Shown here: piece after piece, positions 9,701-57,300 of the stretch
How the letters are laid out: each line of letters starts with the position of its first letter
How positions within the stretch are numbered: the stretch's first letter is position 1
Assembly (NCBI RefSeq): GCF_965638725.1
Contig: NC_134963.1
Coordinates: 10,444,501 to 10,508,500, forward strand
DNA from: Aptenodytes patagonicus
Lineage: Eukaryota > Chordata > Aves > Sphenisciformes > Spheniscidae
Reading direction: 5' to 3'
Length of the DNA stretch: 64,000 bases
Program-made: the position numbers and the translations under genes
The notes under the pieces: model-generated
Database searches by the model: none
Told to the model about the DNA's origin: nothing
Seen by the model: only the letters and a program-made list of their open reading frames with translations

Positions 9701-11050
9701 GCAATGCTAAACATTTAGCAAGGCAGTCATAAGGAGACTCTCTGGCGACTGATAGCAAGCTGAAGGAATTAACTGCAGGGATATAGGGGCTCACCTTTGC
9801 TCCAGGAAGGACATCTTTCTTTTTGCTGTAAGATATCTACTTTTTTTCCAGCAGTAAAGTGTCAAACCCACAAAGGAAGCGATATAATTAGTGCTGGTAC
9901 CTACTACAAACTCGGATCTCTGAAGAGAGACCAGTGCAGCTTTTCAAATGTCTACCATTTTGAAATCAGAAAAACATTTTCTAACAGACAGAAGAATCCC
10001 TCTTGAATCCCCCCTGGCCCTTTTGAATTCACGCCCTGCCTTACATCAAACGCTTTTTTGCTGATTAACTGCACAATCAGGTCCCTGCAGATCAGGGGAA
10101 GAATGGAGAAGAGAAAAGCAACCTCTTTTCCAGAGAACAATACCATTATTTCAGCTCCATTGGACAGGAATGTGTGATTTCACAGCCCACTGCCCTTCTC
10201 TCCCATCTCCAAAAACACTGCCAGAGATCCACTGCTCCAAGTCCCCACCCATTAGTACCCAGATCCAGCATTTACAACTTGGGTTCAATATTTGTGCGTG
10301 GGGGGCTATGCACACATGTGCATACATATATGGAGAAAATATCCAAATCAGAACCAACTCCCAAGCCCAAGAATAGATACAAAGGAAGTTTAGTTTATTT
10401 TTAAAAATAGCTAATATCCTTTTTCTTGTATAATGTAAAATTCTAGTTCACACGCACGCAAGTTGTATTTTGGGGTTGGATTTGGTATGAAGGTAGTTAC
10501 CAAATGAAAGGAAAAGAAATTTTAAAACTAAAATAATTCAACAGTTTAGAGACAAATATACTTTTTCAAAGACAGATTACTTAATAAAATGCCAGTACAT
10601 ACAGTTAAAAAAAAAAAAAGCCTTTTTAGCCACAAAAGTGTATTGCCTTCTCACAGCTTACCCGGTTCCTTTGCTGTTAAGTTTGTCTCATTGGAGTATG
10701 GAAACATTTTCATTTTACAAACATCTGTTGAAATCAATTGTTGAAGAGATGATTCCACAGGAGGAACTATGTATTTTAAAGGTGGAAGCAACCGCACAGT
10801 TGTGAGTTTGTTAGTTAACAATATGGCAGAAATCTTTTCAAAAAAGAAACTCGCCAAGACATTCCCCTGTGAGAGAGACTGTCAATGACTCTCTCGGTCT
10901 TTGTTTATTCATTTTTCAACGATTCCTGTGTTTTACAATTTGCAGGGCAAGAGAAATACTGGACAGCTTCCCCCCCTAGCCCTTAAACTTTGATATCGCC
11001 TGGTTTCAGCTCGACCGCGTGTACAAAAGGCAAAAGCTCTTGTCATGAAA
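6790..11050. other. Non-coding DNA, no gene seen
   Basis: Only short chance frames occur here. There is a 24-base T run at 7143-7166. The segment from roughly 8515 to 8770 mixes homeodomain-type TAAT cores with CpG-containing words and reads like a constrained non-coding element, but this is only an impression. No RNA gene or mobile element was recognised. Confidence 0.45.
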
Positions 11051-11683
11051 GTGCACTGAAGTGACCTGGTGTGTTTTAGTCGGTCACAATTAAATCCCCT
11101 GCTTGGCTCGGCCGGCGGAGAGCGCGGCCGCGGGAGGAGCGGGAGGGCAGCGCGGCCGTCCACGCCGCTGCCCGCCGGTCCGGGAGGGAGAGGAGCAGCC
11201 TCTCCCGTGGGCACCCACCCACCGACACCCCCCCCCCCCCCAGCAAACGCTCCCCAACTACAGCAACAATTACGATTCTAAATTTGGCAAATTTAGCGAT
11301 TTGTTTTGCCCGGGCAGGGCTTGCTTTTCTACGCGGGGGAAAGAGGTCGAGCTTTGAAACCGAAATAGACACAAAATAGCTGCAACCTCTTGGGCAGGGC
11401 CGCCCCCCCCGACCACACCTCCCCGATCCGGGACCGCTGGGGATCAGTTTTGTTCCCCCAACACCAGCACCGCCGAACAAAAGAGAGAGAAAATAATATT
11501 TGCTCAGGTCCCCCCTCTGTTCGCCTTTGATTTATCTGTTTACAACCGGGACCCCCTCAGTTGAAACAAAAAATCAATGAAAATGTAGTTGGAGAAAAGG
11601 CGGGCAAACTACTGAAAAAAAAAAAAAATTTGTGAATGGAAGAATGTGTTTGTGCATTCATTGTTAAAATAAAGAGCGTGCCG

Positions 11684-11812
11684 TGACGTGAGCACCCGGG
11701 CGCCAATGGGCGAGGGGATAATATTTTTAAATATCCTCCCCGGGAGCCAATGGGGGAGGCGGTGGCAAAGACTAGCGCAGGGGCGAGCCAATGGCGGGGG
11801 AGGTATGCTAAT
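11684..11812 (+). promoter_or_regulatory. Core promoter: CRE-like site, three CCAAT boxes, octamer
   Basis: In order: TGACGTG (11684-11690, CRE-like), CCAAT (11703-11707), CCAAT (11747-11751), CCAAT (11788-11792) and ATGCTAAT (11805-11812, octamer-like). Each CCAAT sits in GCCAATGG, and they are spaced 44 and 41 bp apart, about four helical turns, all in the same orientation. This is the classical layout of an NF-Y-driven TATA-less promoter. An AT-rich inverted repeat lies between boxes 1 and 2. Transcription probably starts shortly after 11812 and runs rightward into the microRNA locus. Confidence 0.6.
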
Positions 11813-12748
11813 GAGGAGTTGGTCAGGCAGGAGCTGAATGTCAACTAGTCAAAGATGGAGGCTGGAGCGGGGAGACCATGAGGTTGGTACCGGAGGATTT
11901 GCCCACGTTTTGATCGATCAGGGAGCCACGCCGAGGCGCGACCGGCGCGGCGGCGGCCGGCGGCGCGGGGCGGCGGGAGGCGGGGAGGGGTGGGGGGGGG
12001 GGCAGAGCCGCGCCGCCCTCGCCGCCTCTTTTGCGCCTCTTTTGGCAACTTTCCCCCCCGCGGCGCGGGGATCCGTCCCTCCCGCCGCCAGGTACCGCGC
12101 AGCGAGCGGGGCCCGTCGGCCCCGCCGCCGCCCGGGGGCCGCATCCGCCTGCCCGGGCGGAAATGGCGGGAGCTGCGGGCCCCGGGGGGGGGGGGCGCGG
12201 GGTGACGGCGGGGCGCGCCGCCGCCGCGGCTCTGACAATGGCCCGCAGGGCGAGCGGGCCGGGCGGCCGAGGGGCGGGGGGAGCCCGGCGGAGAGAGCGG
12301 GGCGAGGCGGGGGGGGGGGGGCCCCGCTTGCCGGCGGCGCCCCTGGCCCGCCTCCCGCGCGGGGGGCTCCCCGGCGGGGCCGCGCCGCCGGCCGGGCGCT
12401 TCCCGGAGAGGTTTCCCCGCGGAGCGGGCGGGTGCGGGGGCCTCTTCCTCCCCCTTTTCCAACTGTAGCGATTTCCCAAGTGAAGTTCTCGCCGGTCGGT
12501 TTGCTTTCTGGCGTGCGATCGATACGAGCTGTTGAAACGAGCCGGCGGCCGGAGCCGCCTAGGACGGCAGCGGGGCTAGGAATAAAACTTGGGAGCGGCA
12601 GAAGCGGCAGAGGGCTGGCTGTGTCCGCCGAAAACGGAGGGGAGAAGAGGGGACGGGTGCGGGTCTGCATCGTCCGTGCGCGAAGTGCTGGAGAAGTGTT
12701 GGGAGAGGCGATTGCTGGCAGGCTTGGCTGAAAAATCTCTAGATAGTG

Positions 12749-12750
12749 GT
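12749..12750 (+). other. Candidate 5' splice site at the island edge
   Basis: The sequence reads GTG|GTGAGCTAAT, a near-consensus donor followed by a T-rich stretch. It lies about 940 bp downstream of the octamer, a reasonable end for a first exon of the primary microRNA transcript. No matching acceptor could be assigned. Confidence 0.3.
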
Positions 12751-13383
12751 GAGCTAATTTTTTTTTTCCCCCCTCCTCTCTCAAATATTTCACCGATGCA
12801 AACACTTCTGAGAAATTGAGCGTGATCCCACGAATCGAATTCTTTTCGCCGGAGCCGAGCCCGCTCCCTCCCCACCCCCAGCCCCGCGCCGAGGATTGTG
12901 TTTCACGGGAGGGTTCGCGTGTGCTGCCGCGCTCGTTGTGCCACACGGCTCCTCTTGGAAAATACTATTCCCATTTTCAAACCTAGCAAAACTCCCATCT
13001 CTCTAGATACCATGTAGAATTGTTTTGCTAAAAAAATCCTGTTTTAGACACCCCCCCCTTTTTTTTTTTTTTGCTTAGGACCCCCAAAGAGCGAGGCAAT
13101 AAGTCACATGCTATCTCCAGCCAGTATTTATATTGGCTTAATATTTAAATCTCGTAAAACTAATGCTTTGCTTAAATAGTCCAGAGTTTTTGCAATAAAC
13201 CAGGGTGCGCAGCCCAAAGTGTTTCTTTGGCATTCTTGCACTTTGCCCCAATTCCGCTCCGTTTCCCTCCAGTGTGTGGTCTTCGAGTTGTGTAAGGAAA
13301 GCTCGTACCCTCGAACGCAAACCTGGGGCTCTGGAATTAAAAAAAAAAACTTCCTAAAGTTTAAAGCACGTTCTTTCTTCTAG

Positions 13384-13469: not shown

Positions 13470-14677
13470 AACATTTCCAAACTAGCCTAGGCTTCTGGAT
13501 TAGGGATAAATTATTGTACAAAAAAAAGGAGGAAAAAATTGAAATTAAATCAGAAAACAAGAATGATACCGTTTTAAGATTCTAATTGGGTTGGGACATT
13601 TCCAAATCAGTTGGCTTTTTGTTAATACTACTCTGAAAAACTGACAACTAGAATTCATTTAGTGCATTTTCTCACTCAGCCCAAACTCCCCCAGACTTGA
13701 ATCAGCTCAATTCATTTTAGCATTTGGTACGATTCTTATTTGTCTATACAGTTTATGGAAAGTTGTTTTCAAGTTTGGATTTCTTTGCATAGAATTTCTT
13801 TGCATTGTTTGAAGTCTGAAATCAAAGTATTTTATAATTTCTCAGTGATTCGTATTTAATAAGTAGTTACGTTTTCCAGCTTTAAGTTTGAAATTGTTAA
13901 AGAAACAAATGGTAAACAGTTTGAAACCTAAAGACTAACAAGTTGACTTTTAAATGTTACTTATTGCTAAAATTATTTGGAATGTCTGATTTGTAATGAT
14001 TAACTGATGTTTTCTCCTTTACTACCCATATATTCTTTTTGAAAAAGGAAAAAAATGCAATAGTAATGTTTTCATGATGCAAGTAGATGATTTTTAAAGG
14101 TGTCTCACTCCTGGATGGCAGTTTTTTTTGAAAGCTTGTTTAGATGCTTGTGTAAAATAGCAAGACTTACTTAGCAATTAAAAAGAAATAAAAATAATTT
14201 AAGCTACTAGCAAGCATGTATGTAATAAATACCAAATATTTTGGGAGACGATTCAGGTGAAAGCAATAGAAAGGATATGAACTTCTCCTCCATTGTGTCT
14301 TTAAGATAATGTTTAATCTAATTCATTACACCTACTTTTGTAAAATACTGGAGTGCTGAAATGCAAGGAGGACAATCCTAATTCTGGTCTTTGATTTCAA
14401 TGCTCTAATGCAATACATCTACCATTGAGAAGAAAAAAAAAAAAGTCCCTAAACCAAGCTTATCTAAATTCTTGCTGAAGTTAATTCAAAATGCAGTTGT
14501 GAAATATGAAAATCTAATTTTAAAGAATGACATTGATTCAATGTGGTTGTTGAAGAAACTCCTTTTTTTTTTTAATGTAACAATCTGTTTTAGAGTAAAT
14601 CATGCACAGAAGGCCATCACTTGGAGAAGTTTCTAACTGATTTATCATTTATTTTGGAAAGTCTCTGAAGTATGCTG

Positions 14678-14757
14678 TTGTCCAGAGCCCTTTTTCTGTT
14701 GTACTACTGGCAATTATGATGAGCAGTGCAATATTAAAAGGGCATTGGCTGGCAGAA
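14678..14757 (+). ncRNA. mir-130c: microRNA precursor, miR-130c-like
   Basis: The 3p arm (14724-14745) begins CAGTGCAATATTAAAAGG, the miR-130 family sequence with the AUAUU variant I associate with the non-mammalian miR-130c. The 5p arm (14687-14708) begins GCCCTTTTTCTG. The arms pair well: CCAGAGCCCTTTT with AAAAGGGCATTGG, then GTTGTACTACT with AGCAGTGCAAT, leaving a loop of about 15 nt. The seed AGUGCAA is shared with the other three hairpins. Mature miR-130 loads into Argonaute and represses mRNAs carrying UUGCACU sites. It is the first hairpin of the cluster, 2.9 kb downstream of the putative promoter. The name miR-130a is possible, but the AUAUU centre favours 130c. Confidence 0.9.
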
Positions 14758-15907
14758 ACATGACCCCCTTTAGCAGCCCACCCTCTTCAGAGTGGGCAAA
14801 CAACCCTAAAATAGATGCCTCCTCCAGTGTATTTATGCACGTGTGTGAAATAAGGTTTTATACATGTGGGAGTGGTTTTAAATAAGGAGAGAGATTCTGG
14901 GTTATACATTTTTATATGTCTTTCTGTAGAAATGGGCTGGAATAATTTGAACACATCCTATTTAAAACATAAGCTCCAAATATTTCTGGGAGCTTTCAAG
15001 GCATCACATTACCTGCTTTGTTTACCAATAACTTGTGAGTAATTCATTATTAATTTCTACACACTTCCATACAATATCTACATTGAAATTTTATAATGAT
15101 TTCTTTATAGTTTTTCCCCTTATAGAAACTTTCCCCTGTATGTTTAAGGTGGTCCCTATCAATGTTTATAGGGATTTAATGCTGTTGATTTGTTCTGTGG
15201 TGTTTATACTGTGATTTTTTTTGAGTGGTGACACACACATACGTGTGAGATTGAAGCACAGGCGCTAGGTATTTTTGTACACAAGTCTCATCATTTCTGT
15301 AACATTTTCCATAGCAAATCAAAGCACTGTGTATTTATACCATTCTATATATATACACACACGCACATCAGCCTTTTTCATCTGTACTGGTCAACCACCA
15401 TAAAATACACAGCACAATTAAGAAAACTTCTGAAGGCACAGGAAAGGGCTGGCACTTTCTGTGATTTATTTAAATTGTGTAGTTCAGATTCATTGACTGA
15501 CCAATTTGGTTTTTATGGAAACACATACATTTGGGGGTGCTGAATTACATCCCTTGTTCTTTTATTCTCCATTACTGTAGCAAAATATTTTATTGTATAA
15601 AACCTTTATAACGTACCGTGCCTAGATATACTGGGCATGTAGCAAAAGACTTGAATGGTTTGTTTAACAAGCCATACTAACAGTGGTCTTTCTCTATCTC
15701 CCTCTTTTTTTTTTTTCTCTTTCTGTCTTTTTTTTTTTTAAACTAACTTTTTGTTGTTGATGTTTTTTTACCTTGTCTAATTACGATTGCAAATAAACTT
15801 TGTCATGCAGGGTTTTATTGGGGCTAAACATAAAAACGTTATTGTGGTTAACACTGTAATGTAACAGTCCCTTACAAAAGGATGCAGGGACAGCTGTGCA
15901 GAACGTG

Positions 15908-16006
15908 ACAGTGGCTGCTGGTATCGCTGGCTCTGACAATGTTGCACTACTGTCTGCACAAATAAAGCAGTGCAATAATATTGTCAAAGCATTTGGTTCC
16001 AGTCCT
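15908..16006 (+). ncRNA. mir-301b: microRNA precursor, miR-301b
   Basis: The 3p arm (15968-15990) begins CAGTGCAATAATATTGTCAA, matching the miR-301 family. The 5p arm (15930-15951) begins GCTCTGAC, the conserved miR-301 passenger-strand start, and ends TTGCACTACT. The arms fold into a long stem extended by CTGG/CCAG-type pairing at the base. The loop (15952-15967) contains the hexamer AATAAA. It lies 1.2 kb downstream of the miR-130c-like hairpin in the same orientation and shares its seed. In mammals miR-301b is adjacent to miR-130b; here they are about 7.8 kb apart. Confidence 0.93.
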
Positions 16007-16009
16007 AAT

Positions 16010-19000
16010 ACATCCTTTATGATCAGTTACTGTTGCACACCCAGCCCCTGACATTATGGGACTCTGTAGTTATTTAATGCATTTTAGTAGGGAACCAGCC
16101 CCCTATGCTGATTTCTTCCCCCCACCGCAAAGGCTCCAGCGAGCGTTAAAATGTCAAGATCGCGTAGAAATTGCCCAAAAAATCCCTACCCTTGTGTTTG
16201 TTTGTTTGTTTTGTGTTTAGGTTGAGTGGTCTGTATGGAAATTCCTTGGGTTTTGTTCCCCGTTTTGACTGCTTCAGTGTACAAAATGGATTGCCCTTTC
16301 TGCCACTAGTGTGGGTTTGTGTGTCCAAGTTGTAAAATAAAAAGCTGGCCTATTCACATTTTAAAGCCCTCTTGTCCTCCTTTAGAGCAATCACCACCTT
16401 TAAAAATATCCTGACCAGGTTTGAATATTTTCTTGCTACTGCTTTAAAAATTAAGAGTTTTATGAACCTAAGGATGTTATTGTTGTGTATAGAATTCAGT
16501 GACTTTAATACATACACATGTATTCACAGGCAATTTAATTTTTGCTTCCTATTGATGTATTTTTCAAGTTCCATCGTATTTCACTTTTAGAGAAATTACT
16601 GTTAAGATTAAAGCAATATTGATACCTTCATTTTCATTTAAAAAAAAAAAAAGAGTAGAAGGCATCCAAATAATAATCAATAGGTTTTGAAAGACAATCT
16701 TTCCCTGCACTTCCCAATAGCAACGTGGAGCGAGTCTGAGAGACGCAGGGATGATGTAGGCCCAGGAACAGGAATATTGCATTCAGAATTGATCTTTAAA
16801 TAACAATATGTTGGTGACTGTCACTCGAGGTGTAGTTGGAGGCAGATGTGGTGTTTTCGCTTGCAGCTGCTAAGAAAGGGGTTTGGAGGGCTGGGGGATG
16901 GGACCTTCCTTTTTTTTTTTCTTTCCTGAAGCCTTGAGCTGTTACCTTGGGAGCAAAGGGTGGGGGTGGGGAGAGCCGTCATATTGGAAATCAAATCTAA
17001 GTAAAGGAGTGTTTTCAGATTGCACTGCACATCCCAAGCCAGGCTGGGGTGTGCTAGTGAGCGAGCCATGGGGAGAGGCAGAAAATGGAGGACCACATCC
17101 TGAGGGGGGGTGTGTGTCCCATCTTAGAGGGATGAGGGGAGGCCGAATCCTCAATAACGCACTCCAGTTCCTCAATGAATGAGGGAGCAAACAAAAGACA
17201 CCTTTTCAGTCCCTCTATTTCTGGTGAGGAGCTGAAGCCTGTCTCCCTGTTGCGCCCAGAGGAGAAGGCTAAGCCTCCGCGCCCGAACCGGAGGCACGGT
17301 GCTGGTGGCGGATGCGGTACAGCTCCCAGGCCTCAGTGGAGGTAACCTGAGCCGGCATGGCTCCCTTTCTCTAGAGCTTTTCTTTTCATCCATCTCTCTG
17401 CATTGTAGCACGGTTGCCATTTTTGTATGTGTTAAGGAACAGGGAGGCCTGTTTAGCTTTGGCACTTTCCCCTCCTCCTCCTCTTAATTTTTTGATTAAT
17501 TAAAAAGTAGGAGAGAGTGAAATCTGTAAGGGCTTTGCTGGGGGGGGGTGTCTTCCCCCCCCTGCCTCCCCCGCCATCAATAGGAGCGCAAGAGTGACCA
17601 GAGTGGAAGTGCGAGGGGCCCTTCACTGCCTCTGGCCAAAGGGGATGGGAAGGAGGGTGGACCAGCGAGGAGCTGGAAGCCACACTGGAGCAGGGCAGCA
17701 CTTTGCTCTCTGTGTGTGTGTGTCTGTGTGCGCTCGTGGAGCCCTTCAGCAAGTGGAAATAAGCGCTAGTGAAAGCCTTGGTGGAGCTGATGCTGGGCTG
17801 TAAGATGGCCTCTCAGACGTGTGCGCCTGCCTTGTTTGGAGGTGGAGAAATCACGGGGGGGAATAGATGCATACTTGTTTTCATGTATAAAGTTATGTCT
17901 TTAAAAATAATATAGCCGCTACACTTGAAAACCTTCCCTGGGCGGGGGGGGATTGAGGCGTGTGGTACAGGGAAAGGCCTGTGCGGTGACAAGGACCCAT
18001 CCCATTGGCAGAGGGCGAGGGGACACATTCAGAGGCCTCCTGGCTCCGGCTGGGGCAACGGAGCCCACGGAGGGCCCTTCACTGAGCACCAGCTCTCTTG
18101 AAGGCAGGCCCCAGGGGTGCGGGGAGGGGGGCGAGGACAGGGTTCCCTGCAGATTTGGGCCTGGGATGGAGGTTACACATTCCAAACCCTCCCTTCCCCA
18201 CTCTTTCTTTATCTTTTTTTTTTTTAACCCTGCCTGGCTGAGGAATGTAACAGCGAAAAAAAAAAAAAGCAGCAAGCACTGGAGGAAAGCAGAAAAAAAA
18301 AAAGGGGGGGGGGATTCGGAAGCAAAAGCCCCTTCAGGAGTCTGTATTTGTGCAAGGGAAACCATTTGCATGTGTGTGGAGATGCCAGAGTTTGTCTCCA
18401 GTTGGGTCGGAGGGGGAGGGCGCGGGAGGAATGCGGGGAATCAGGTCGGGCTGCGGGGGGAAGGGCTCCGGCAGAGCCTCCATCCTGTTGTTGCATAAAC
18501 TTGTTAAAAGAACCCCTCCTCTGTGGAAGCAGCACACATAGGGTATTAGTGTGGTGGAGGAGGCCAGACCTGCGCCCTGGCTACACAACCAATTGGAGCG
18601 GAAAGTGAAATCAGATGGTTTAAGTTTTCAGAGGGATTTTTTTTTTTTTTTTTTCAGGGGGACTTTTTGAGTCATTGCATTGAGTGCTAGATCCGTGTTA
18701 AGGTCGCTCCTGCTCTCGCCGCTCTTGGGTGGTTTGGGGAAGCGGGGCGGCCGGGCAGGGGCAGGAGGTGCTGCTTCCCCTCTTGCGGTGCCCCTGGCCC
18801 CGGCTGTAGAGACTTGGGCTTGGGGCCCTGTGGAGAAATCGCACCCCCTACCCCTGCCGGCAAGGGGACGGGCAGTTTGTGGGCAGCTGGGGTGTGTAAC
18901 AAGGGGAGTCTGTCCCCTGCCATGGGGGAAGAGTTACTTGGGGGACCCCGAGATCAGCCCCACACGTGCTCCTTCCCCAGCCAAGGCAATTACAAGAGCT

Positions 19001-22000
19001 TTCACTTGCCCTGCTGTACATGCAGGGCCATAAGTGGGATCGGCACTTCCAAGGTGATAGGGTTTAGCCCTATTTTGCTCCTGCATTTAGTACAAGTCTT
19101 TTTTTTTTTTTTTTTCCATCAGACAGCAGAGCACTGGTAAACACCATGCAGAAAAGCCGTATTGTGGGGTTACAAAGTCTAGGCTGTTTAAGGAGCTCTG
19201 TCATTCCTTTTAATGGAGCTCACTGACGCAGATCTGGCTTCTGCCAGCCGAGGAAATGTTGCTGCTGAGAAAAGGGTTATTGAAACCCACAAACTAAATA
19301 TTATAAGCAAGAATCAAATGGCAGGACGTTCTGGAGTGTAATCCCTCCTGATTTCAGGAGAAGGGGAACGTATTGATAAGTGGCTGTGGGTGACAGAGTC
19401 CCCAAGCTCGGTGGGTGAAATGCGCTTGGGAAGGTGGTGTTTTCAGAGAGGATTATCAACCCTTACTCTCTGGAGTCTCTCACACCTGGACAGGTTGACT
19501 CTTGCATGGAAGCAAGAATCCCCTTTTTCTCTGGACGGATTTGTACAAACTTGCTAGATAGACTTAAGGAGCCAGGACTGGAATGCTAAGAATTTTCTCT
19601 CTCAAAAAAAAAAAAAAAAAAAATTAAAAAGGCAACACTTCCCAGTTTTAAAACAATGATAAAATTATTAAATAGGATGGAAAACTCTAAATCAACTCTC
19701 AGCCTACAGCTGTTTCCAAAGTGTTTGCTCTGACCTTTGGTAATAGTGTCAATTCCGCTGCAGAAAATATATTGTAGACTATATAATGTATTTAATTGCA
19801 AGATGGCTTTTAAATGGTCTCCTTTCCTCAGGCTAGCGAAATGGCTGTGACCGGGGAAGCAAGGCTGGACTGAAGCTTTGTTGCCCTGCTATGTTTTGTG
19901 AGGTTGCAACTGAGATGAAAATTTAAAAAACCCGCTTGCCCGAAGTGGCACCTTTAACCACAAGAGAAACAAACAAACAGCAACAAAGGGAAGGGGAAAT
20001 GGCTCCCTAAGCTAAACCAGGGAAAGGTCTGATCTCACAAGGAGCGGAGGCCTCTGAGCTCCAGAGTCAGCTCACTACTTTATTTATCCCAAAGCTTCAT
20101 CGTAAGGACGCTTCAGTCTGCTAACATCAGAAAAGGGGGCTTAAACATATAGCAATGACTCCACTACAGTAAAAATTCCCCCCAACACACACTGCCAAAA
20201 AAAAAAAAAAAGGCTTTCATTATTGAGCAACATATAGTGTTATTTCCATACTAGTCTGGGTGACATTTCCATTTAGTTTCTATAACTGTGATTAAAGGCG
20301 AGAGAGGTTTCTAAACATATCTAGAGATGCTGAGTCTCCTGGTATATAAATAGCATGCATTTCATAATCTCGTGTTTAAACGTTTATTTTAAAATAACCC
20401 CCTTATACATTCCGGAGAGTCTCCCGGCTATAGGACATAGCGCAACCCAGGCTTTGCATATTGTTTGCAAACTGGGGGAATATTATTGGAGATTGAATCA
20501 ATCTTCATTTTTCTTGTCTTGTTAAAAAAAAAAAAAGGGAAGGCGTGGGGAGTCCTGTGCCAATACACCACTTGAAGATAAGAAAATTTCTGAGACACAT
20601 CTAGGCTCTCAGCACAGACCCAGAAACATAAAGACAAAGTAACTTAATTGCCGTTGCTTGGAACTTGTGGCTGACGTTTCTAATTACATCCCTTACACTT
20701 TCCTGCCAGTTGTAGCTTCCGCAACTACTGAAATTCTTAAATTGTGTAGAAATTGTCAAATCGTGCTCCCCCCCCCCCCCCCCGCTACTGATGCATTAGT
20801 AACATCACCTGATGTGCGAATTGTATGTTTCCACTGTAAACTTGACAGTGGGTTTGTCTCTTGTGCCACTGGAGAAGTTAAATTGTGTGTGTTAAGTGTA
20901 AGTCTTGTTTGAGATAACATCGAGGCTGAAGAGTGGAAAAGACAGACATGGTAAACAATAAACAAAATAGAGACTGGACGGGAATAGATGGAAAGGTAAG
21001 GCCAAGCCTAGTTGCGTCTTTTTTTATGTTCTCAGTCCAACTGGATGTCTAGGTTGCAGGGATTGTTGAGAAGCAGAGTGGCAGGATTAAACCTGAGGTT
21101 TTGCCAAGGTAACGAGAATACAGAAGTTTTATCAAACTCATTCTGAGCCACTTACAGCAATCTCTGTGAATATGGCCTTTTAATTAGTGTGAGCAAAGGT
21201 TAATACAAATAAATAATGCGGAAAAAAGATCCCTGTTTGCTTCCAACAAGCAACACAAAGGATGGGGAGAGGGAGGGGTTGGGGCAGATTAGAGATTTTG
21301 TTTATCAGTCCATTAGAAAAACAAACAATTAATGGAGCTTCCCCCGTTCCCTTTTCTTTGGCATGTCCTTAGTTTTCTGCTGCTTTGGCAAGTCAGGCAA
21401 CATCAAAGGGGATGCAGGGCTGCCTCACACCAGCATGCCAAACGCCAGGGATCTCTAATGGCAAAGACCAGATCAATGTGGCATGCATAAATTAGCCAGG
21501 AATCCATGAATTAGGGGATTGTCTCTCCATTACACTCCTATTTAATCCACTGGAAAGCAGGCTGAGGAAAGAGAAGCTTACAGTGTCAAAATCATGACCT
21601 GGTTTGGGATGGCCTGGGAATGAAGTTTCCTTCCTCTTCCTCTGGACTCTCAAGTGTTCCTACGTGACAAATGAACTGGGGCAGGTTAACTGGGAGCCAG
21701 ATTGCAGAGGAAGAGTCTAGTTGGCAAAGCAGCCCTGAAGCTGGAGGTGTCTCGGCCCCTCCCTGGGAATCATTTCTGTGGCTGTTGGTGTGTTCAATGC
21801 TAAACCAGCCCCAGCTGAAGATTGTGCCTTCCAGCCTAGGACAGAAAAGGTGCTGGGGAGGGAGGCAAGAAGAAGAAAAAGCCAAACAAAACGAGCTAGG
21901 GCAAAACACGCGTGCGTCTCCGAACACTGTTTAATCTGTGTGCATTAATGTGAAGTCAGTGCTGGAGAGCCAGCCCTGGAGATCCTGTTTCGCTTTCTAA

Positions 22001-22510
22001 TTTTTGGTGTGTACTTAATCCTGTGATTTCCAACGAAGGGAGGGATATTTTAAAACACTGGGCTCTCCAAGTAGGACAGCCCTAGAAAGGAAGTTCTCTG
22101 ACAGCTTGATGCCTGTTACTAAGAGGTTCGAAATACAACTATCAGTTAATTAAATAAATAGCACTTCCCAGCCTCTAACAGCTAGGCAGCTAATTGACTG
22201 AGGTTATTAATAAAGGAGAAAAATTTACACAGAAGAACAATGTGAGAACTAGGGACAGAGGTGTATAGAAACCTGGATAAAATCCATACTGGAGTTAAGT
22301 ATGTCCTGGGAGAAAGGGGTAGCGCCCATGCACAGATTCTGCGGGGTCAGAGGTTTACTCCATTCCTGCATCCCCACCCTCCCAGGAGCACACGGTGCTG
22401 TGATCCATAGGGCAGTGCACTGCTTTCTAACTTTTTACCCCTTCCCCATTTGCAGGCATGGAATGAAGCTCCTTCCAGTCACCTGCTGCAAGACACATTA
22501 TCCAGCTTCC
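16010..22510. other. Spacer inside the microRNA locus, no gene seen
   Basis: Six and a half kilobases separate the first and second pairs of hairpins. The stretch has G-rich parts (about 16.85-19.0 kb), many A/T homopolymers (for example 18637-18655 and 19604-19622) and a 16-base C run at 20768-20783. No coding exon was recognised. A degenerate extra family member was looked for by the AGTGCAAT core and not found. Confidence 0.5.
20768..20783. repeat. C16 homopolymer
   Basis: Sixteen consecutive cytosines interrupt an otherwise AT-rich spacer. It is likely to be length-polymorphic and prone to sequencing slippage. Confidence 0.9.
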
Positions 22511-22514
22511 TAAC

Positions 22515-22600
22515 CTTAAGGATGAGACCCTATCAATATTGCCTCTGCTTTTGTGATCAGGGTAGTAGTGCAATATTGCTTATAGGGTCTTTTCTTTTGA
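22515..22600 (+). ncRNA. mir-454: microRNA precursor, miR-454
   Basis: The 3p arm (22566-22588) begins TAGTGCAATATTGCTTATAG, which is miR-454-3p as I know it. The 5p arm (22527-22548) begins ACCCTATCAATATTGC, the matching miR-454-5p. The stem is strong: ACCCTAT pairs with ATAGGGT and CAATATTG pairs with CAATATTG, around a loop of about 17 nt. The seed AGUGCAA is the same as in miR-130/301. In human the known miR-454 lies next to miR-301a on chromosome 17, not next to miR-130b, so this copy extends the 301b/130b-side cluster. It lies 1.2 kb upstream of miR-130b on the same strand. Confidence 0.92.
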
Positions 22601-22979
22601 GGGTTATTCTTCACGGAGAGAAGAAAGCCACAGCAGGAAAAAATAATCCTATGTGCCCATCGAGTTAAGGGAAAAGTTGTGAAATGCCGAGCGTTGTTAG
22701 ATAGGCAAGTAATTGTGCAGAGATTTTACTTGTGACAAATAATCGTGCTATTGTGGTGACTCAGGTTGTGAGTAATGGGCATATTTTTGATGCTATCACA
22801 CAGGATTCAAAACGGCCTTGTGTTTAAAACGCACAAGCAGTGATTGAAACCGGAGAAACCCATCGTGGCTCCATTTTAAAATAGTATGAGTCCCGAGACT
22901 TTTGAAGGGTGCCTATTTTGCATGATGATGTAAACACCCACCAAGGGATGGGAGGAGATACAGAGCCACACTTGCTGTT

Positions 22980-24130
22980 TCTGTGCCTGATCCCAGCCCG
23001 AAAACCAGTGCGGTGCGAAGCAGAGCACAGCACAAAGAGGCCGAGGCTTTAATCCCAATAACCTCCTCGAAACAATGCTCGTGCCTCTGCCTGGCGAGCG
23101 CAGCCCGCCGGCTACAGCTCCGGGCTCCGCGGCCGGGCCGGGCCCTGCCACCCGGGGGCTGTTCCAGGGTCGGGCGGCGCAGCGGGGCTGGGCACTGCCT
23201 CCGGCCCTTCCCGAGAGCTGTTCACTGAGGTACGTGGGAACGGAGCAGGGATGGGGGTGTTAAATCTCTTCTCCGCTTTGTGAGGGATCAGCTGGGGGCT
23301 GACAGCAGCCGGGATGGCCGAGTGGGTGGCCCTGCCTTCCATTTCAGGTGGTCCCCGCGGTCCCTTTCGGGACCTCAGGGGCCCAGGGAAAGGGATGGTG
23401 GGAGGGGACTGGAGGCCGGATCAGGGCGCGGCGGAGCAGCCGCTGCCGCGGGGCTTTCCGAGCCGGTCCCCGGGCAGCGCGGGGCCGCTGCGGCGCGTCT
23501 CCCCGCGGCGGCCGGGGGAGGGCCCGGAGCCCCACGACGGGGCTGTGGCCGCTGCCTCCCCGTTGTACGGCTGACCCTGCCGCTGCCCTCGGTTTAAACC
23601 CCCCCTCCCCCTCCAGCATCATTCCGGGGGGAGGTGGGCAGCTCGGGGACAAAGCCAGGAACCGCCCCCCCCGGGCTCTCCCTCCGTGCCCCAAGCCCGG
23701 CGGCCGGGCTGCAGGCCGAGGGGTGGCCGCGGCTGCTGGGCCAGCGCTGGGACCGCCGGGCGGGCTGCCCCTCTTTCCCTGTTGCACTACTGTCACGGTC
23801 GCAGCGAGCAGTGCAATAATGAAAGGGCGTCAGTGCGCCGGGGAGCGGCGAGAGCCGGGGACGAGCCGGTGACAGCGTGCGGGGACGAGACGTCCCGCCG
23901 CCCCCCGAGAGCCACCTTAACGGGGAGGGGGAGGGGGGGGGCTTTGGTTGTGCAACTTTCTTTGTTTAAACACGCAGCGGCGGAGTGTGCGCGCAGGGGC
24001 AGGGCAAGGTGAGCGGCTCCGCGCACCGCCCTGCCCCGGGCCCCCGGCGACCGCCGCTCCACGCCCCGCCGGCCCCGGACGCGCTCCCCCCGGCTGGCCG
24101 CGGGGCGTGGGGCAGGACGCCCCTCTGCTG
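22980..24130. promoter_or_regulatory. CpG island surrounding the last microRNA
   Basis: This is a CpG-rich block of about 1.1 kb that contains the miR-130b hairpin itself. Open frames across it are compositionally biased and do not look like protein. It could be a second, proximal promoter for miR-454/130b or a GC-rich last exon. Placement of a hairpin inside the island is unusual compared with the other three, which lie in AT-rich DNA. Confidence 0.5.
23760..23842 (+). ncRNA. mir-130b: microRNA precursor, miR-130b
   Basis: The 3p arm (23809-23830) begins CAGTGCAATAATGAAAGG, the miR-130b form. The 5p arm (23771-23791) begins CTCTTTCCCTGTTGC, which is the conserved miR-130b-5p. The arms pair as CTTTCCCTGTTGCACTACT against AGCAGTGCAATAATGAAAGG, with a GC-rich loop of about 17 nt. 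It is the last hairpin of the cluster and sits inside a CpG island. Potential polyadenylation signals follow about 320 bp downstream. The shared seed with the other three hairpins implies an overlapping target set. Confidence 0.95.
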
Positions 24131-24146
24131 TACCCGGCCAACACCG

Positions 24147-24156
24147 AATAAATAAA
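24147..24156 (+). terminator. Overlapping AATAAA poly(A) signals
   Basis: AATAAATAAA gives two overlapping canonical hexamers at 24147-24152 and 24151-24156, followed by T/G-rich sequence from about 24175. They lie about 320 bp beyond miR-130b, so they are the best candidate 3' end for the primary microRNA transcript. Confidence 0.45.
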
Positions 24157-27004
24157 GTGACTCCCACGTCCCCTGTCGCTGCCTTTTCTTCCTGGTGGGT
24201 TTTCTTGCAGGTCACCAGCCCCTCCCGCCTCCCCAGCAGCTGTACGCAGATAAAAATCCCCTCGACGGGCTTTTGTCCGGCGATCCGGTGTGCTAATCGC
24301 CCGTTTAGTCTTTGTGGGGAGAGGTTGAAAACGCCAATAGGAAAACGAGTGTCTTCCTTCATTGAAAAACGGGCTCGAGTCATGCCCTAGTGCTGGGTTC
24401 AGCAATGGGGGAGCACGGGTAGGTAAGCGAGTGTGTGGGGGTGGGAGGGGAAGGGTTTGCAATAATGGAGATGAGAATGGCGCTTGGCATCTGGGAGCTG
24501 TGCGGGGAAGGCCAGGAAATAGCCCTTTGATTATTAGTGGCCATGGTGAAATGGATACTTCTGTAAAAGAGGGCTGGGGAGGGGTATTTCCTTTAGCAAA
24601 GGACCTTTCCGCTCTGGCCTTTTGAACCTGCGCTTCTCCCTGGCACCATTTCTGCTTCATCATGACTTTTTGCAGAGGAAGGTGAGTGCAGAAAGCAGTC
24701 TGGCTGTAGGAGAGGGATGCAATCTAATCCTGATGAAAAGGTTTTTAACAGTATGCTTCGTTTCCTATTTCTTTTAGATTCCTTCTTTCTCCAGTCTTTC
24801 ACATGCACAAGCAGATATAAAAGCTGAATCCTTCCCTGCAGTCTTTCTCCCAGGGAAAAGTCAGACCCCTCCCTGGCTTCACCTTCAGGCTTTGCGCACA
24901 CAAAATGGCTGCAGCAGCCTGTGGGTGGGCATGGAGAGCTCAGGAAGCTGCTTTTCTTTTTCCCACCCTGCCTGCCCAGGAAGCCCTTCTGCTTTTATTT
25001 TCTGTGGCATTTTGCTCTTGCATAGCTCTGTGCAAATCCAAGGGGGTCTCCTATGTGCAAGCTATGCATGGAATGGGAGCTGGGGAGGGAAATGGCCAGT
25101 TTGCATGAGAAGGGGACCTGTCGGGCCCCAGTGTTTATTTTTTTGCTGACCTTCTGGGGATATGGTCAGTGAGAGCTGTGACAGCTGCTGGAAGCGGCAG
25201 GGGCTTTGAAGATTGTGAAGGTTGTGACCTCGAGGCCCCTTTCCTCTCTCTGTCCCAGGAGCTGCTGAGTCAATCAGGGAAAAGGGGAGGTGAAATGGGG
25301 GCTGCTCTTTAGCCATTTTTCAATCGGTGAATGAAACAGGAAAGGACAAATGCAAGAAGAAAAAAGAGCGATTACTTCCACTTTGGTGCATTACTGAGAA
25401 GGGGGAATCTCTCTTTGGCAAAAGATTATAACAATAATGGGAAACCACTATGCTCCTAAGATCCAGCACCTTGAATAAAAGATTTAACTGGGCAAGGAGC
25501 TGATGGCAGATCAATAACAGTAAACTAGGGGGAAAGCCTACAAACTCCTCTTGGTTCAAAGCAAGAAGAAATCCACCTCTTGTTTCCACCTGATACCAGC
25601 TCTAGATATAGCAGCGGGAACATGTTCCCAGTTGGCCCACTAGCTCCCACCATCTCCTTGACCCTACATTAACACATCTTCATCTTTGCTGAGCTCAGCT
25701 GAACCCTATGGCTGAGGTTACAGAGGCCACCGAGAATGGCTGCACCACACATGCCAAAATAAAGGGACAAAGTACATTGTGCGGGGCTGTATCCTTGATG
25801 TGCATGCACTTTCAAATGGCACAAGCTCCCTTGGCAATCCACACCCCTGGGCAGCCCACGAGAAGGCTCTCGCTCAGCCCCAGAGCCCTGTCTAAGCCCA
25901 CTGAGTGGGGTTTAAGTCTTTTTCACTTTCTGGATAACATGATCCTATGGATCTTTCCTTTTAAAATAGTAATCAGAACAGCAAACAGAGCACCCGGCTT
26001 CGGTTGACCAATACACAACAGAGGCAAAGAAGGCAAACAGCAGGCTTTTCAGTTAGTTTACACAGGGGGCACTTAAATACTGTATTGGTTACATAATACC
26101 ATTTAGGGGTTGGGGTTTTACACATTCTTCTACTAAATATATCTGTGAGATTTGTTTTAAAGTGATCAACATAAATCCAGCCACAGCTTTGAGGCAAAAA
26201 CTCCTACGATTAGACCTAATACCACAAGGTAGCTCATAGCGTATTTACTGAAAACCAAGGCACAATAGATTTTTTTCCTAGACCTACTGGTCAGCACTGT
26301 GCTCGCTCCACTGCAGTGGAGGGTGTACACTGCCTCTAGAAGGGCTGCCATAGACAGCCACTTCCCTACAGGAAGCACAAGCTGCTGGTTTTTAGGGCCA
26401 CATCCTGCCACTGCTCCGCATCCAGTCCTCAGGATTCATCCCAGCATAGACTGACCACAGGATATGTTCCGGCAATTATGACAAACTTCAGTGCTAAGAA
26501 AGAGGGTGAGGCATATAAAAAAAAATTTCTAAATCCTAGCTGCGATTGATTAGGAAAAAGGTATTCACTGTTAACTCCTCTGGAGAACCCCATTCACAGG
26601 GGATACCTGAAAGTATATTCCTTTCCTGATAAGCCCTCTGGTAAGCATCCTGTTCCCATCCAAAGGGCGTAGCAGGTGGCCAAACTGCTCCACTGGAGGC
26701 TTGACAATGGCATTATCCACCCAGCTTTTCAGCTGAAGCCTGGCTCAATCTGTACACAACTTCTGAGACTCCAGCTAAACCCTTCCTGGGAACAGCAAGC
26801 TTCCCCAGGCAAGGCCCGGATCTAGCAGCCCTGCATCCTTGCAAAGGACCTGTCCCTCTGCTCAGAAGTGAACAGATGGGAAGAAGAGTCTCAAAGCATC
26901 AGAGCTTTAAAACCGTGCTCTTCTCTTTAGTGTGTTGTCACCAGAAGCTCCGCAGGCAGAGATCTCTGCCATAAGGAGCTAGCAGAACAGTGGGTGGGCA
27001 GCTA

Positions 27005-33650: not shown

Positions 33651-33659
33651 CATCTGCGC

Positions 33660-39221: not shown

Positions 39222-42200
39222 TCAGAGCTCATCATGTTTTGCAGGGTCCATACTGGGTTTGATGAAGACTCCTTCCATTGCTTTCCAATAGTTGTGATGA
39301 TTAGCAGTAGGCATGCCATGAACTTCCCGTTGGCCTCTAATGGGATGGCCATACTGTTCCCCTGTTATTGAAAGGAACACCTCCGTTCCTACGTGCTTGA
39401 AGCGCACTGCATCCTCCCGCTCCCAGTAAGTCCCACTGCATTGCACAATCCATATATCAAGGTCATCTCCTTCGCCATCATCACCAAAGGCACTTACTTC
39501 CTGTTAGAGACACAAACTTCCTGAAGTGAAAATGTAAGCAAATACCTCCAATACACACACAAAAATATCAACCGCAAAGTCAGCAGAATTTAAAGGCAAG
39601 GATGGAGAGGAAAGAAAAAGCATTGTTGCATTGCTTTGTCAACAGTTATCAAATCCAGAAGCAGTAACTTTCTACCACTACAATCTGAACACAAAGTGCC
39701 ACCAAACTCCGACATGTAACCTGAGCAAAACGTGCCAACAAACCCCAACATACATTACAAATGAAATGAAAGAGGACTTAAGCACAGAGATCAGAACAAT
39801 CCTTCTGCAAAAAAATTCAAAAGAAACAACACTAATGCTGATGCAAATCTTCCCCACTCAAAAAAGTTTGTAACTGCAGACATTTAGTCTTGTAGTATGA
39901 CCAACTTCAGTTACCATTGCAACGGTTTTTTTCAGCATGTGTTTTTAATCACAAAGTCCCAACAATTTAGCTTATTAAGTACTCGTATTCCTTTTTTACT
40001 TAATTATACCAAGCTTACAATTCGGTCAACAACTATTCTGGTTTACACTCTTTCTTCAGATAGGCAGCTGAATAGCTCTTTAAAAACATAAAGAAGACCA
40101 TTAAAGCAAATGAATTCCTGCTGAAACAAAAGTTAGAGATTAGATTTCATTATGCACTAAAAAAAATTCCAAGTGTTTGCAGAAACCGGATAGGCTAAGC
40201 ACCAACTGTTTAGGACTCCAGACAGCCTTTAATTCTTAAAAATGTGATAACTAGAAGTGATGAACAACTTGAAATAGAACTGCAATAGTTTGTACCTAGC
40301 AACCTAAAATTTTAGGGTCATGTTAATTCAAGTTTATGTAGTCCAAAAACTGTGAAAGACAACATACTAATTGAAAATCCAACTTCTGTTAGGAATATGA
40401 AATAAAAGTTTGTGTTCATAACTACATCATATTTCAATAATGTCATAAGACACAGTCCTGTCAATCTCTGGGAAGTCATGCAAATTTTCCTTTCGCTTAG
40501 ACGCTGTGCAAACACATAGCAAAAACAAAGAAACACAATGACAGTTGCTGAACATTTTTACATTAATGACATTGTTATTCAAATTGTCTAAACTGACAAA
40601 TGAAAACTGGGGCAAGGTTTTAGAGTCAATCTGTTCTTTAAATAGTTCTTCTGAAATACTATTTTTCCATCACTTCCTTTGTTTTAATAACCAGATCACC
40701 TAGATACCCTAGACAAAACTGGACCTTATTGTTTCAGGCACTTTACTCATGGTAAAAGATAAACCTTTTTCACAAAGAGTCAGGTCTTCCAGCTTTGAAT
40801 GTAATGGCCTATCTACATAGCCTGAAGGAAGACTAAAATGACTGCTAATGACAAACTTCCAACAAGTTTGCATTATTTATTTTAAGAGAGATTTTCAATC
40901 TTGGAGAAGCATTTCTTCAAGGACAAGACTGGGACCTAATTACAGTTAGAAATTACACTCTTCTAGACAGGTACAAAATGATAAATAAATACAATTGTGA
41001 GAGCAGATCCATTTTTCCTGTGGAAGGAGGACAGATAAATAAGAATAGTGAACTAAAATAGGGATAGTGAGAAGATGACTGAGACTAATAGATTGGATCA
41101 CCAAGGAACTTGGATATAGGAATGCCTAGTGCTACAACACAGGATTAGTTGCCTTGCTCTAGAGCAATCTTCACAATGTTGAGGGAGGTGCCCAGCCTCC
41201 TATGCCTTGAAAGTGCTAAACATTTCAGAACAGTCTTCCCAGTAGCAATGGTGCAGAATGAAAAAAAAATAATGCAGATTTGTTAAAACTACTGTGAAAT
41301 ACCAATACCGGTACATATTAAATTTTACCTCTGTCAAGAACTTGAATACATTATTCCAAGATGCAGAAAAGCATATACTTGAACTGTGGATATGTATAGA
41401 CATACTGTTTCTGGCAGCTGGTACCCAAGCCTGATTCTTCAAAAACATGAAAAACTGGAGAGAATCTTGTCAATAGCATGCACTATTTATACAAAAGCTT
41501 GAGATTTAAAACAACTCACTTGATTATTGGAGAGTGGTGATGGGAAGTGATGAGTATGTAAATTTTTTCCTGTGTTAACATGGGTAAGTCGTATAGCTTG
41601 CCCACATTTCACTGCTGTTCCACGTTGGCAACTGCCATCACTCTTCCCACGAATCCGCCAGTAACTGTTAGCATCATCTGAAGCTTCAACTCCTGTCACT
41701 GACTGCTGCCCGCTTCCTGTTTGAATAGAATTAAATGGCAGGAGACTTAAGCCACTTCTCCAGTTCAAAAAGTCCTGAAAGAACTAAAGAAACCTGCCTT
41801 AATGTTCTCATGCCTTCCTGTTTAAGAGACGTTTAATTCTCACAGTCCATTTACTGACTGCAATGGGAATGCAGGTACGAAATAATCTTTCAGATTGAAG
41901 AAGTTAAACACAGCATGTGTTAGTAGGTGCAAACTGTCAAAGTTCATGGTGAACACGAGAAGAAAGTCTGATCCGTGATGGATACTATTCACACCATCCC
42001 ACTTCTCTCAAAAATACTATGAAGTTCTTTGTGTCCCCAAACAAACCAGCAGCCTTGTTGCCAGAATAGATGCTGGGAAGGTACTGCTGAGGCCCTAGAC
42101 ACAGAACAGGGCTCACCTCAGGGATGAGGGCAAAGCATCCCTGTGACACCCCCACTCCAGGACCTGCGGAGCTCAGCCGCATCTTCCTGTACCCCAGGCC

Positions 42201-42757
42201 TCAGCATCCTCCTCTCCCTGCCAGGCTGCCCGGTCTCCAGCGCATCCCACAACCCCAGCCCTGGCCCGCTACTCCCTCTGCACCAGGGACACGGACCTCA
42301 GCAACCTCTAATCTCCTCCTCCTTCATTGCCACCCCTCACTGCCGGCCCCCTCCCGCCATTTCTCTGCCATCCCGCCAATTCCCCGCTCCCCTCATCGCC
42401 TGTCCCCCCGCCACTTCCTAGCCCCCCGCACAGCCTGTCCCCCCGCCATTTTCCTACCCCTCTCACCGCCTGTCCCCCCCAGCGCTTCCCAGCTCCCGCC
42501 ATTTTCCAGCCCCCCTCACGGCTCCCCGCCCGCCATTTCTCAGCCCCCGGCCCCTCAGCGCGGCGGCCCCCAGCCCGGCCCTGCTCACCGGAGCCGTACT
42601 TGACCTCGTGCGAGTGGAGCCGCACGCTGTGGCGGGTGTTGAGCAGCTTCAGCACCGAGCCGCAGGTAACAGCGCCCGGCGCCGGTTCCCTGCCGTGACA
42701 CAGCCCGCGCAGCAGCGCCAAGAGCAGGAGCGGGAAGAGGCGGCAGCTGCCCCGCAT
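39222..42757 (-). CDS. SDF2L1: Stromal cell-derived factor 2-like 1, ER-lumenal MIR-domain protein
   Basis: Three coding exons join in frame with GT-AG borders: exon 1 42757-42589, exon 2 41716-41520 and exon 3 39500-39222. They give 645 nt, 214 residues plus stop. Human SDF2L1 is 221 residues as I recall. Residues 1 to about 22 form a signal peptide (MRGSCRLFPLLLLALLRG...). The mature part starts with TCGSVLKLLNTRHSVRLHSH and carries three MIR repeats, including GSGQQSVTGVEASDDANSYW and a later LTHVNTGKNLHTHHFPSPL. The C-terminus is HDEL, an ER-retrieval signal, which separates it from the paralogue SDF2. In other animals the protein binds the ER co-chaperone DNAJB11 and helps keep misfolded clients soluble in the BiP chaperone cycle. 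Intron 1 (872 nt) is phase 1 and intron 2 (2,019 nt) is phase 0. The flanking YDJC gene confirms the locus. The start is the only ATG that gives a signal peptide in this frame. Confidence 0.96.
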
Positions 42758-54259: not shown

Positions 54260-54307
54260 ATGACCTCTAAGGATGCTTCAGGTGAAGCTAATAGTAACTG
54301 GAGATGA
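54260..54307 (+). CDS. Upstream ORF overlapping the YDJC start
   Basis: An ATG two bases after the exon acceptor opens a 15-codon frame ending in TGA at 54305-54307. It overlaps the YDJC ATG (54273) in another frame. If the exon is spliced as proposed, every YDJC mRNA would carry this overlapping uORF. Ribosomes would have to leak past it to make YDJC. No function of the peptide is implied. Confidence 0.35.
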
Positions 54308-57300
54308 CTTTGGCTATTGTCCTCGGAGAAACCAAGGCATCGTGGACTGTTTCCTGGCTGGTGCGGTATCTAATGTGTCCCTTCTAGTCAACGGAAGTGC
54401 TGCAGCAGATGCAGCCAAGCTGGCAAGGAGGTAAGCCACTTTCTTTAGCTCCTTTGTGGACAGCCTCCACAGGCTATCCACGGAAAGCCAAGCCTGTAAA
54501 ATTTAGTATTTTGTAGCCCCAGTGTAAACACTGTATCATAGCCCAGGGTGGTATAAGAAAACTGGATTCCAGGCATATTTACTAAGACTCTTCATAGTAA
54601 AACCAATGACCTGCCAACCATACCCATATTGGCTCTTTCTCTGGTATTAGCCACTGCACTGCATCTTTTTTTCCTCCGGATAGAAAGCCACTTACACAAT
54701 TTGACTAGTAGAGTTTGGGTTTGTTGGGACCTTCTTTTCCCACAGTTCACCATCACACTATATACCCAGGCCAAACTGCTACCCCTAAAACTATTAAAGC
54801 ATAAAAGCACAAATCTTTAAATCTCATTTAATTTGATGCATTTCAGCCAGGCTGAACACAGGGTCAGCCAGGTTCATTGCAGAATCAGGGAAAGGTGTGA
54901 TTCTGCATGGGCTAAGTTATAAATCGGGGCAGTGGAAAACTTGATTCTTCCACCCCAGAAACCTTTTAAAAAAGCACCTCAATATTTCTATTAATTCTAG
55001 GCTTGATAAATCCATTTGTAAAAACTGCATACATAAAGAGAGAGACAGTACCTTTTACCTGCCTTGTACCTACCATCTTTACTCCTTCACAAACTTTTCA
55101 GAGGTTGCTGGCACAGTTGGCTCTGTAGCAAATCAAATGCTATGTGTCATTCTCATGGACTAGCCCAGCAAATCCTTTAATAGGAAGTATTACTTGTATT
55201 TAGAAGGTAAAACCCAGCTAATGCTTCAGCTCCAGTGTGGGCAGGCACTTGGAAGCAGGAGCATGTCCTGAAAGAGAGAGCAGCAGGGTTGAGAAACAAT
55301 TTAGGAAAGCAGAAAAGGAAAGGAGCTGTACTGGTACTAGAAGAACTGAGACCTTATGCTTCAAATACAGCTGCTGCAGGGGACAGTTTCATGAGAATCA
55401 AGCTGTCCTTGTTCTCCTTGAGCATCTCTCCCCATTTTGGCTGTGATTTTAGGGGTACTTGGAAATTGTTTGCAGCCTGTAGCTTCTTTGATGTTGGGTG
55501 GTGCAGGAAAGCCAGGGTGTGGTGTTAGTGGCAAACCAGTCTTCTGTTAAAAAGGTTAGAGATTACACAGAAACACTGAGAGAGGAACTGCCTCTGGGAT
55601 GATAAGGGGAGAGACAGAAGGACACAACACTTGAGAGGCCTAAAATCCTGTTAGTAAATGAAACAAATGAAATGTAAAACAAGGAGATAAAAGCCAGCAC
55701 TTCTCTCAGACACAGAGGCACCGTGAAACCCTTTAAGCCCCAATGCTCTGGTAATGTTGTCAGCTATTTTAACCATGGTCTTTAGCAGGCCTTTAAATAT
55801 AGAATCCACCTGGCCTCATTTCCATAGCCAGAAAGTAGGCCATGTAATCAGAGGTTTAAAAAGCATCTTTGAATCCAGGTCATGACACTTGTGCTGACAG
55901 CTGATATGGGTGTGAAAAGCCAGATTGGAGGGCAGGTGACAGCAGAAGCTGCAACCTGCTGCTATGATTTCATTCTTTTGGGGGGTAGTTTTGAATTGTA
56001 AATGTGAATGAAATGGATTTAAATCTATTTCTGAGAATATAAGCACGGTGACTTTGAGAACATCTGTCAGCACTGAAGATCAACAGCCCAGGTTCTGAAA
56101 TTCCTCATTTGTGTAACCCTCTGCAGCTGTATTCAGCCCTACTCACCCACGGGGAAAGCATTTGCAGGTTTGGGGAAAAGGGTTTCTCATCTTCTAATGC
56201 AAGCCCCACTTCAGGTGCTGCTAGTACACATGCACTTAATTGGCACCTGTGCATGTAAACAAACTCTTGTGTCACCCTTAAGATATTCGTTCCTCTATTG
56301 CAAAGGTTCACGTAAACTCTTTTTAGACACAGATGTCTAGTAGGTCAGACTTACTAGAAATGTCATTGAATGCTCCTCATCTTGTGGTGCAGAAATGGGA
56401 AAGTATCACTGTTGCTTGACTGCCTTGCCACTGTTATTCCCTCTTTCCCCTGCTTGGTGTTGTTTCCCATCCCACTATGAATGTTGAGGCTTTGCAACAT
56501 TTTGTGTTTTATGGGATGAAAGTCTACCCTGTTTTTTCTCCCCATGTTTGTCTTCCACCACAGACGCCCAACTAAGCAAGTACTATATACTACACAATAT
56601 ACATACACATGCATATATGCTTAACTCCGTAGCAGACATTTCAGCCTTGACTAGACAGTGGTGTAAGCAGGGAGACTGGATCTATCACCAGCTGAGAGAA
56701 GAGGCTTGAAGCAAGTAGCTTGTTCTTTCCTGTGGTGCATTTCAGTATTGTGGGATTTGGTCTTTTGCACACACGGTGCCAGGATTGTCAGAGTGCTGGA
56801 CTGTTTCTATGGCTTGTGGAGATTATCTGGTTGCTTCTTGATGGTTGCTCCTCACTGCAGGTCTTGAGCTCTCTCTCCTCACCTGGTCTTCAGTTAATTG
56901 GAGGCAGGCAAAGCTAATTAGTTACAAGACAACTTTTTTTGCAGGACAGTCCTTCTTAAGCACCTTGTGCTGCCCTGCAATGTTAGGACTAGGCATCTTT
57001 CAGAAAGGAACACAGTTCCTCTGGAATTTCATTCTTCCTTTCATTTTTACAATAATTCTGTAGGCTTCTGGGCATACCATCTGTTGCCCTGTGTTTTGAT
57101 TAGAAGCCTTGGCAGAAATGTGATGGTAGTCAGCAGATCTTTGTACCAGCTCTAGCACAAACTAATTGCAAAACAGCAGAACCAAGCAGTAAATAATACA
57201 CCTTCCCTAACATCTAGGGTCTGGATCTTGGGCTTTTCTCATTCATTGTCACAACTGGGCTAAAAGAAGGGACCCAGTCACTTCAGGCAAAAGAGAAGTT

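Follow-up and report, generated by a model that had tools for sequence, protein, structure and literature searches.

In human, the members of the miR-130/301/454 family are split between chromosomes, with 301b~130b on chr22 and 454 on chr17. The stretch of Aptenodytes patagonicus DNA analysed here (64 kb, hereafter the window) carries four hairpins with the family seed AGUGCAA on its forward strand, at about 14.7, 15.9, 22.5 and 23.8 kb, and is therefore fuller than the human locus. Is this a set preserved from an early vertebrate, from which human has lost members, or a local gain, and did its two pairs of hairpins arise by duplication of a segment, as proposed in the original prediction? We consider it very probable (about 0.93) that the known vertebrate miR-130/301/454 cluster has its ortholog in the window, at a locus of the human 22q11.21 type, in the order 130a-301a-454-130b under the chicken names. 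The hairpins themselves, their order, strand, spacing and neighbours, and the identity of the mature strings to chicken for three of the four were directly observed. The cluster is of a conserved kind that has been described before, most of its details included, and the window does not contain a new system; three of its members (130a, 130b and 454) have already been placed on chicken chr15 in the literature. The original prediction described the locus correctly and interpreted it half rightly.

A scan of the whole window with the Rfam models (cmscan) returned three matches at the gathering score (40.6 for mir-130, RF00258; 56 for mir-301, RF02061; 60 for mir-454, RF00746). All three are microRNA precursors on the plus strand, and they correspond to hairpins 1, 2 and 3 (Table 1). 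The seed occupies positions 2-8 in each of the four 3p arms. Since the window contains 18 occurrences of AGTGCAA, 6 on the plus strand and 12 on the minus strand, the seed alone is no evidence, and it is the hairpin scores and the whole mature strings that carry the identification. Successive 3p arms start 1244, 6598 and 1243 bases apart, so that the two tight pairs with internal spacing of 1.2 kb that had been proposed are indeed present; 130a and 130b are separated by 9085 bases. Folding of each precursor, which had been put forward as a check, favoured hairpins 1 to 3. Compared with 200 shuffles, the z values of the four hairpins were -4.51, -4.29, -5.61 and -1.09, and 1, 0, 0 and 28 of the shuffles, respectively, folded as well. 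Stem stability thus exceeds that of shuffled sequences for the first three hairpins (z from -4.29 to -5.61), but not for the fourth (z from -1.11 to +0.78, all cuts considered).

Table 1. Coordinates of the hairpins, CpG islands and neighbouring coding exons, in window positions.
Feature	Position	Strand	Evidence
mir-130 hairpin (hairpin 1, 5'-most); chicken name gga-mir-130a	14676..14754	+	RF00258, 59.6 bits; 3p arm at 14724
mir-301 hairpin (hairpin 2); chicken name gga-mir-301a, human 301b locus	15919..16003	+	RF02061, 68.9 bits; 5p at 15930, 3p at 15968
mir-454 hairpin (hairpin 3)	22505..22605	+	RF00746, 88.0 bits; 3p at 22566
mir-130b hairpin (hairpin 4)	23759..23839	+	exact gga-miR-130b-5p/-3p strings; 5p at 23770, 3p at 23809
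CpG island, 1.7 kb upstream of hairpin 1; candidate promoter	10901..13000		GC 0.623, CpG observed/expected 0.95
CpG island containing the 130b hairpin	22801..24600		GC 0.649, CpG observed/expected 0.76
SDF2L1-like coding exons	39225..42685	-	tblastn, human SDF2L1 query
YDJC-like exon	54273..54431	+	Pfam YdjC, E 4.4e-17
UBE2L3 exons	past right window edge	-	tblastn

The fourth hairpin deserves separate consideration. On the plus strand it falls below both thresholds that could apply to it, with 43.4 bits against 56 for mir-301 (23759-23841) and 37.7 against 40.6 for mir-130 (23759-23839), the latter gathering score being a detection threshold rather than a biological definition. Three tighter cuts of the precursor gave z values of +0.65, +0.78 and -1.11, with 148, 159 and 29 of 200 shuffles equally good. 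Because the fold resembles that of shuffled sequences, it proves nothing by itself for this hairpin. The missed gathering score and the ordinary fold are what one would expect if a chance or decayed copy, not a working microRNA, were lying within a CpG island. Such a reading is scarcely credible, since the two arms match exactly the printed chicken miR-130b-3p (22 bases; PMC6586908) and miR-130b-5p (21 bases), the 5p string appearing with counts in a chicken small-RNA count table (PMC5758705). Moreover, chicken miR-130b-3p has been measured and has effects in cells (PMC5966247). Hairpin 4 is therefore taken as the ortholog of chicken miR-130b on the strength of its arms and not of Rfam, and the presence of four AGUGCAA-seed hairpins on one strand can be regarded as real. 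A CpG island surrounds the hairpin, and shuffled versions of the GC-rich hairpin fold about equally well.

Comparison with chicken strings also gives the names of the first two hairpins. The 3p arm of hairpin 1 matches exactly the string printed as gga-miR-130a-3p (PMC6586908). Hairpin 2 contains the exact gga-miR-301a-5p string, printed with chicken counts (PMC5758705), together with 19 bases of a gga-miR-301a-3p primer (PMC6663980). The names first given to these two hairpins, "130c-like" and "301b", should accordingly be replaced by 130a and 301a in the chicken nomenclature. For the third hairpin, the name of the 3p string is taken to be miR-454; the mir-454 model supports this name, and the string itself was found in published papers. 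The strings gga-miR-130c-5p and gga-miR-301b-5p are printed beside 301a-5p in PMC7565416, from which it appears that chicken has further family members, beyond those placed by the search of the present genome. MirGeneDB naming follows the paralogon (PMC8728216), and in the accessible text of that paper the sole match to "mir-130" is MIR-1306, another gene. Whatever the names, the locus of the hairpins corresponds to the human 301b-130b locus.

This correspondence is supported by the neighbourhood. SDF2L1, YDJC and UBE2L3 are, we assume, the neighbours of the human cluster at 22q11.21, and all three are recognized here (Table 1), which supports placing the cluster at a locus of that type. The SDF2L1 query aligned over three stretches with 79, 83 and 57% identity (E 4.5e-40, 7.5e-36 and 5.7e-13), and one SDF2L1-like fragment compared with Pfam matched no family at 1e-3. 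The window and human mir-301b~130b on chr22 are thus alike in surroundings; the human cluster differs in consisting of 301b~130b only. YPEL1 is also presumed to lie near the human cluster. Here, YPEL1-like exons were found on the contig of the window (C15:69426-81986) at a distance of 10.4 Mb and not close by, so that the human synteny is broken on the YPEL1 side. Queries for PPIL2 and MAPK1 gave no match at E <=0.01 in the window, in the adjoining 50 kb on the left, or in the surroundings of the YPEL1-like gene.

A further difference concerns strand. The microRNA cluster (14676-23839) is on the plus strand and SDF2L1 on the minus strand, whereas the human hairpins presumably run parallel to SDF2L1. 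This looks like a local inversion, in the bird or the human lineage, that changed the orientation of the cluster with respect to SDF2L1. Between the cluster and SDF2L1, four more CpG islands are observed (27901-29800, 29801-30900, 31401-33100 and 33101-34000).

Among the closest known systems is that of chicken, whose printed gga-mir-130a, 301a and 130b strings are identical to those of the window; 454 completes the chicken set. Chicken 130a-3p and 130b-3p are mapped to chr15:399369-399390 and chr15:390547-390568, both on the minus strand and 8822 bases apart (PMC6586908), that is 8.8 kb against 9.1 kb in the window. Chicken 130b and 454 are both on chr15, while their human counterparts are on chr22 and chr17, respectively (PMC7291112). 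Given the identical strings and the neighbouring accessions MI0001239, MI0001240 and MI0001241 (130b, 301a and 130a), gga-mir-301a would also be located on chicken chr15. A literature search confined to titles and the first lines of abstracts, and reaching neither the miRBase and MirGeneDB tables nor the majority of subscription journals, returned no description of a bird four-member cluster as a unit with its synteny. PMC8789304 gave no match to four terms, and the accessible parts of PMC4159003, PMC7565416, PMC10993543, PMC3406056 and PMC6862082 have no bearing on cluster order.

Zebrafish is informative on age. Its chr5 carries the pairs 130b+454b-2 and 301b+130c-2, matching the window both in the four kinds of hairpin and in how they are paired; the zebrafish arrangement differs in that two separate transcripts are listed and that chr10 also carries 130a-1+301a-1+454a-1 (PMC2427041, Table 3). 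One could imagine that the four hairpins are a gain of birds or sauropsids, 454 and a second 130 having been copied into a pair of the human type, and the retention of 301b and 130b only in the human chr22 cluster would fit with this idea. The zebrafish chr5 pairs make it very improbable. Since identical pairs occur in zebrafish and in this genome, the four-member set is likely ancestral and the human pair reduced, and an ancestral full set is more likely than a bird gain. The suggestion that the window preserves the fuller ancestral cluster is accordingly supported, though such a conserved set was already known in kind. In terms of history, the four kinds of hairpin would probably have been together before ray-finned and lobe-finned fishes separated, and the human lineage would later have lost two of the four at the 22q11.21-type locus.

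The second part of the original interpretation, in which an ancestral unit of two hairpins was duplicated as a segment, fares less well. The nearly equal spacings inside the pairs (1244 and 1243 bases) are suggestive of it, and in an alignment of five sequences three extra columns are common to 301 and 454 and absent from the 130 hairpins. These columns would provide a weak hint that 301 and 454 are sister hairpins. Outside the hairpins, no similarity between the two pairs rises above chance, either by blastn or by local alignment. When spacers and flanks were compared between the pairs, the five local alignments scored 21-27, values that 12-95 of 100 dinucleotide shuffles reached in each case. 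A blastn search of 5 kb against 4 kb around the pairs gave 31 rows, of which only two had E <1, and both of these are hairpin arms (130c-130b and 301-130b, 130c being the first name of hairpin 1). The use of the near-equal spacing as a trace of duplication was set aside because the spacers do not align. Among the hairpins, the scores of 130c-130b (24.5), 301-130b (20.5) and 130c-301 (20.0) each beat all of 200 letter shuffles. The scores of 454 with 130c (9.0), with 301 (8.0) and with 130b (8.0) are each under the best shuffle; the 454-130b value exceeds the shuffle mean (3.1, sd 1.6) by about three standard deviations, and the 454-301 value compares with 15.0 for the best of 200 shuffles. Hence 454 does not appear nearer to 301 than to the others. 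Finally, the hairpin order is mirrored with no change of strand, and an A-B-B'-A' order on one strand is not the product of a single tandem or inverted duplication; it requires either that hairpins were copied one at a time or that other rearrangements took place. Taken together, these data leave the duplication of a two-hairpin unit unsupported and unlikely. It should be reminded that the pairs already exist in zebrafish; any such duplication would be very old and its flanking trace may be lost, so that lack of similarity does not amount to disproof.

Related hairpins elsewhere in the genome bear on how an ancestral four-member set may have been pared. The genome-wide profile search scored the best candidates only, so that all copy counts are lower bounds. 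At least one mir-454 match was found, that of the window (none in 14 control genomes), and at least one mir-301 match above the cut-off, also in the window. The two mir-301 rows that scored lower fall on the 130 hairpins of the window itself; a below-cut-off match in one of the 14 controls, a bacterium, means that weak mir-301 rows are given no weight. mir-130 exceeds the cut-off in at least two places, the window and the contig named C17 (none in the 14 controls), and the pattern AGTGCAATNNTNAAAGGGC occurs three times, twice in the window and once on C17, its reversed control having no match. The C17 hairpin (L014:7735-7818, minus strand; 3p arm CAGTGCAATGTTAAAAGGGCAT) scores on both strands, with 52.1 bits on the minus strand and 50.0 on the plus strand. 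On the better strand it lies upstream of two SKA2 exons of the same orientation (Pfam SKA2, E 1.5e-13) and some 56 kb away from the first exon of a YPEL gene taken as YPEL2.

In human, mir-301a and mir-454 are presumed to sit in an intron of SKA2. If this is correct, the present genome resembles the human SKA2 locus in having a family hairpin, here of the 130 type, upstream of SKA2 exons, and differs from it in giving no mir-454 match. In 110 kb around the C17 SKA2 locus, neither mir-301 nor mir-454 reached the gathering score, a masked stretch in that sequence preventing any comparison for, or claim of absence of, mir-301. A check for a third paralogon, on a 9 kb contig with YPEL-like exons and on 40 kb around the YPEL1-like gene, gave no Rfam match at the gathering score. 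The scan also took in 50 kb on the left and 10 kb on the right of the window, excluding the outer locus L013 on the right, and had no match in its 11 loci and 109,000 bases. It may be proposed tentatively, with slightly less than an even chance of being right, that the four-gene set predates the vertebrate genome doublings and was pared differently in each lineage at the YPEL1-side and YPEL2/SKA2 loci. This genome would then have retained all four hairpins at the former and at least a 130 at the latter, and human 301b+130b and 301a+454, respectively. On this view, genes that carry one name in bird and human, 130a above all, would not be orthologs, and the cluster would be inverted relative to SDF2L1 in one lineage.

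As regards expression, members of this family are Pol II transcripts cut by Drosha and Dicer, and 3p arms with the AGUGCAA seed share overlapping targets. The four hairpins of the window are most likely processed by the same enzymes from one or two primary transcripts, transcription as a single unit being one possibility, and their 3p arms would repress an overlapping set of mRNAs through the common seed. The CpG island 5' of the cluster is a plausible promoter of the primary transcript. In chicken Marek's disease tumours, the loss of miR-130b is accompanied by methylation within the 1 kb upstream of it (PMC5966247), a finding that fits a role for the island at 22801-24600.

The main reading, an ortholog of the known vertebrate cluster, raises no new question by itself. 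It shows clearly how an old microRNA cluster can be kept more completely in one lineage and broken up in another, and it is useful for naming orthologs. The chicken and human names 130a, 130c, 301a and 301b do not match the same loci, and this matters whenever target data are transferred from one species to another.
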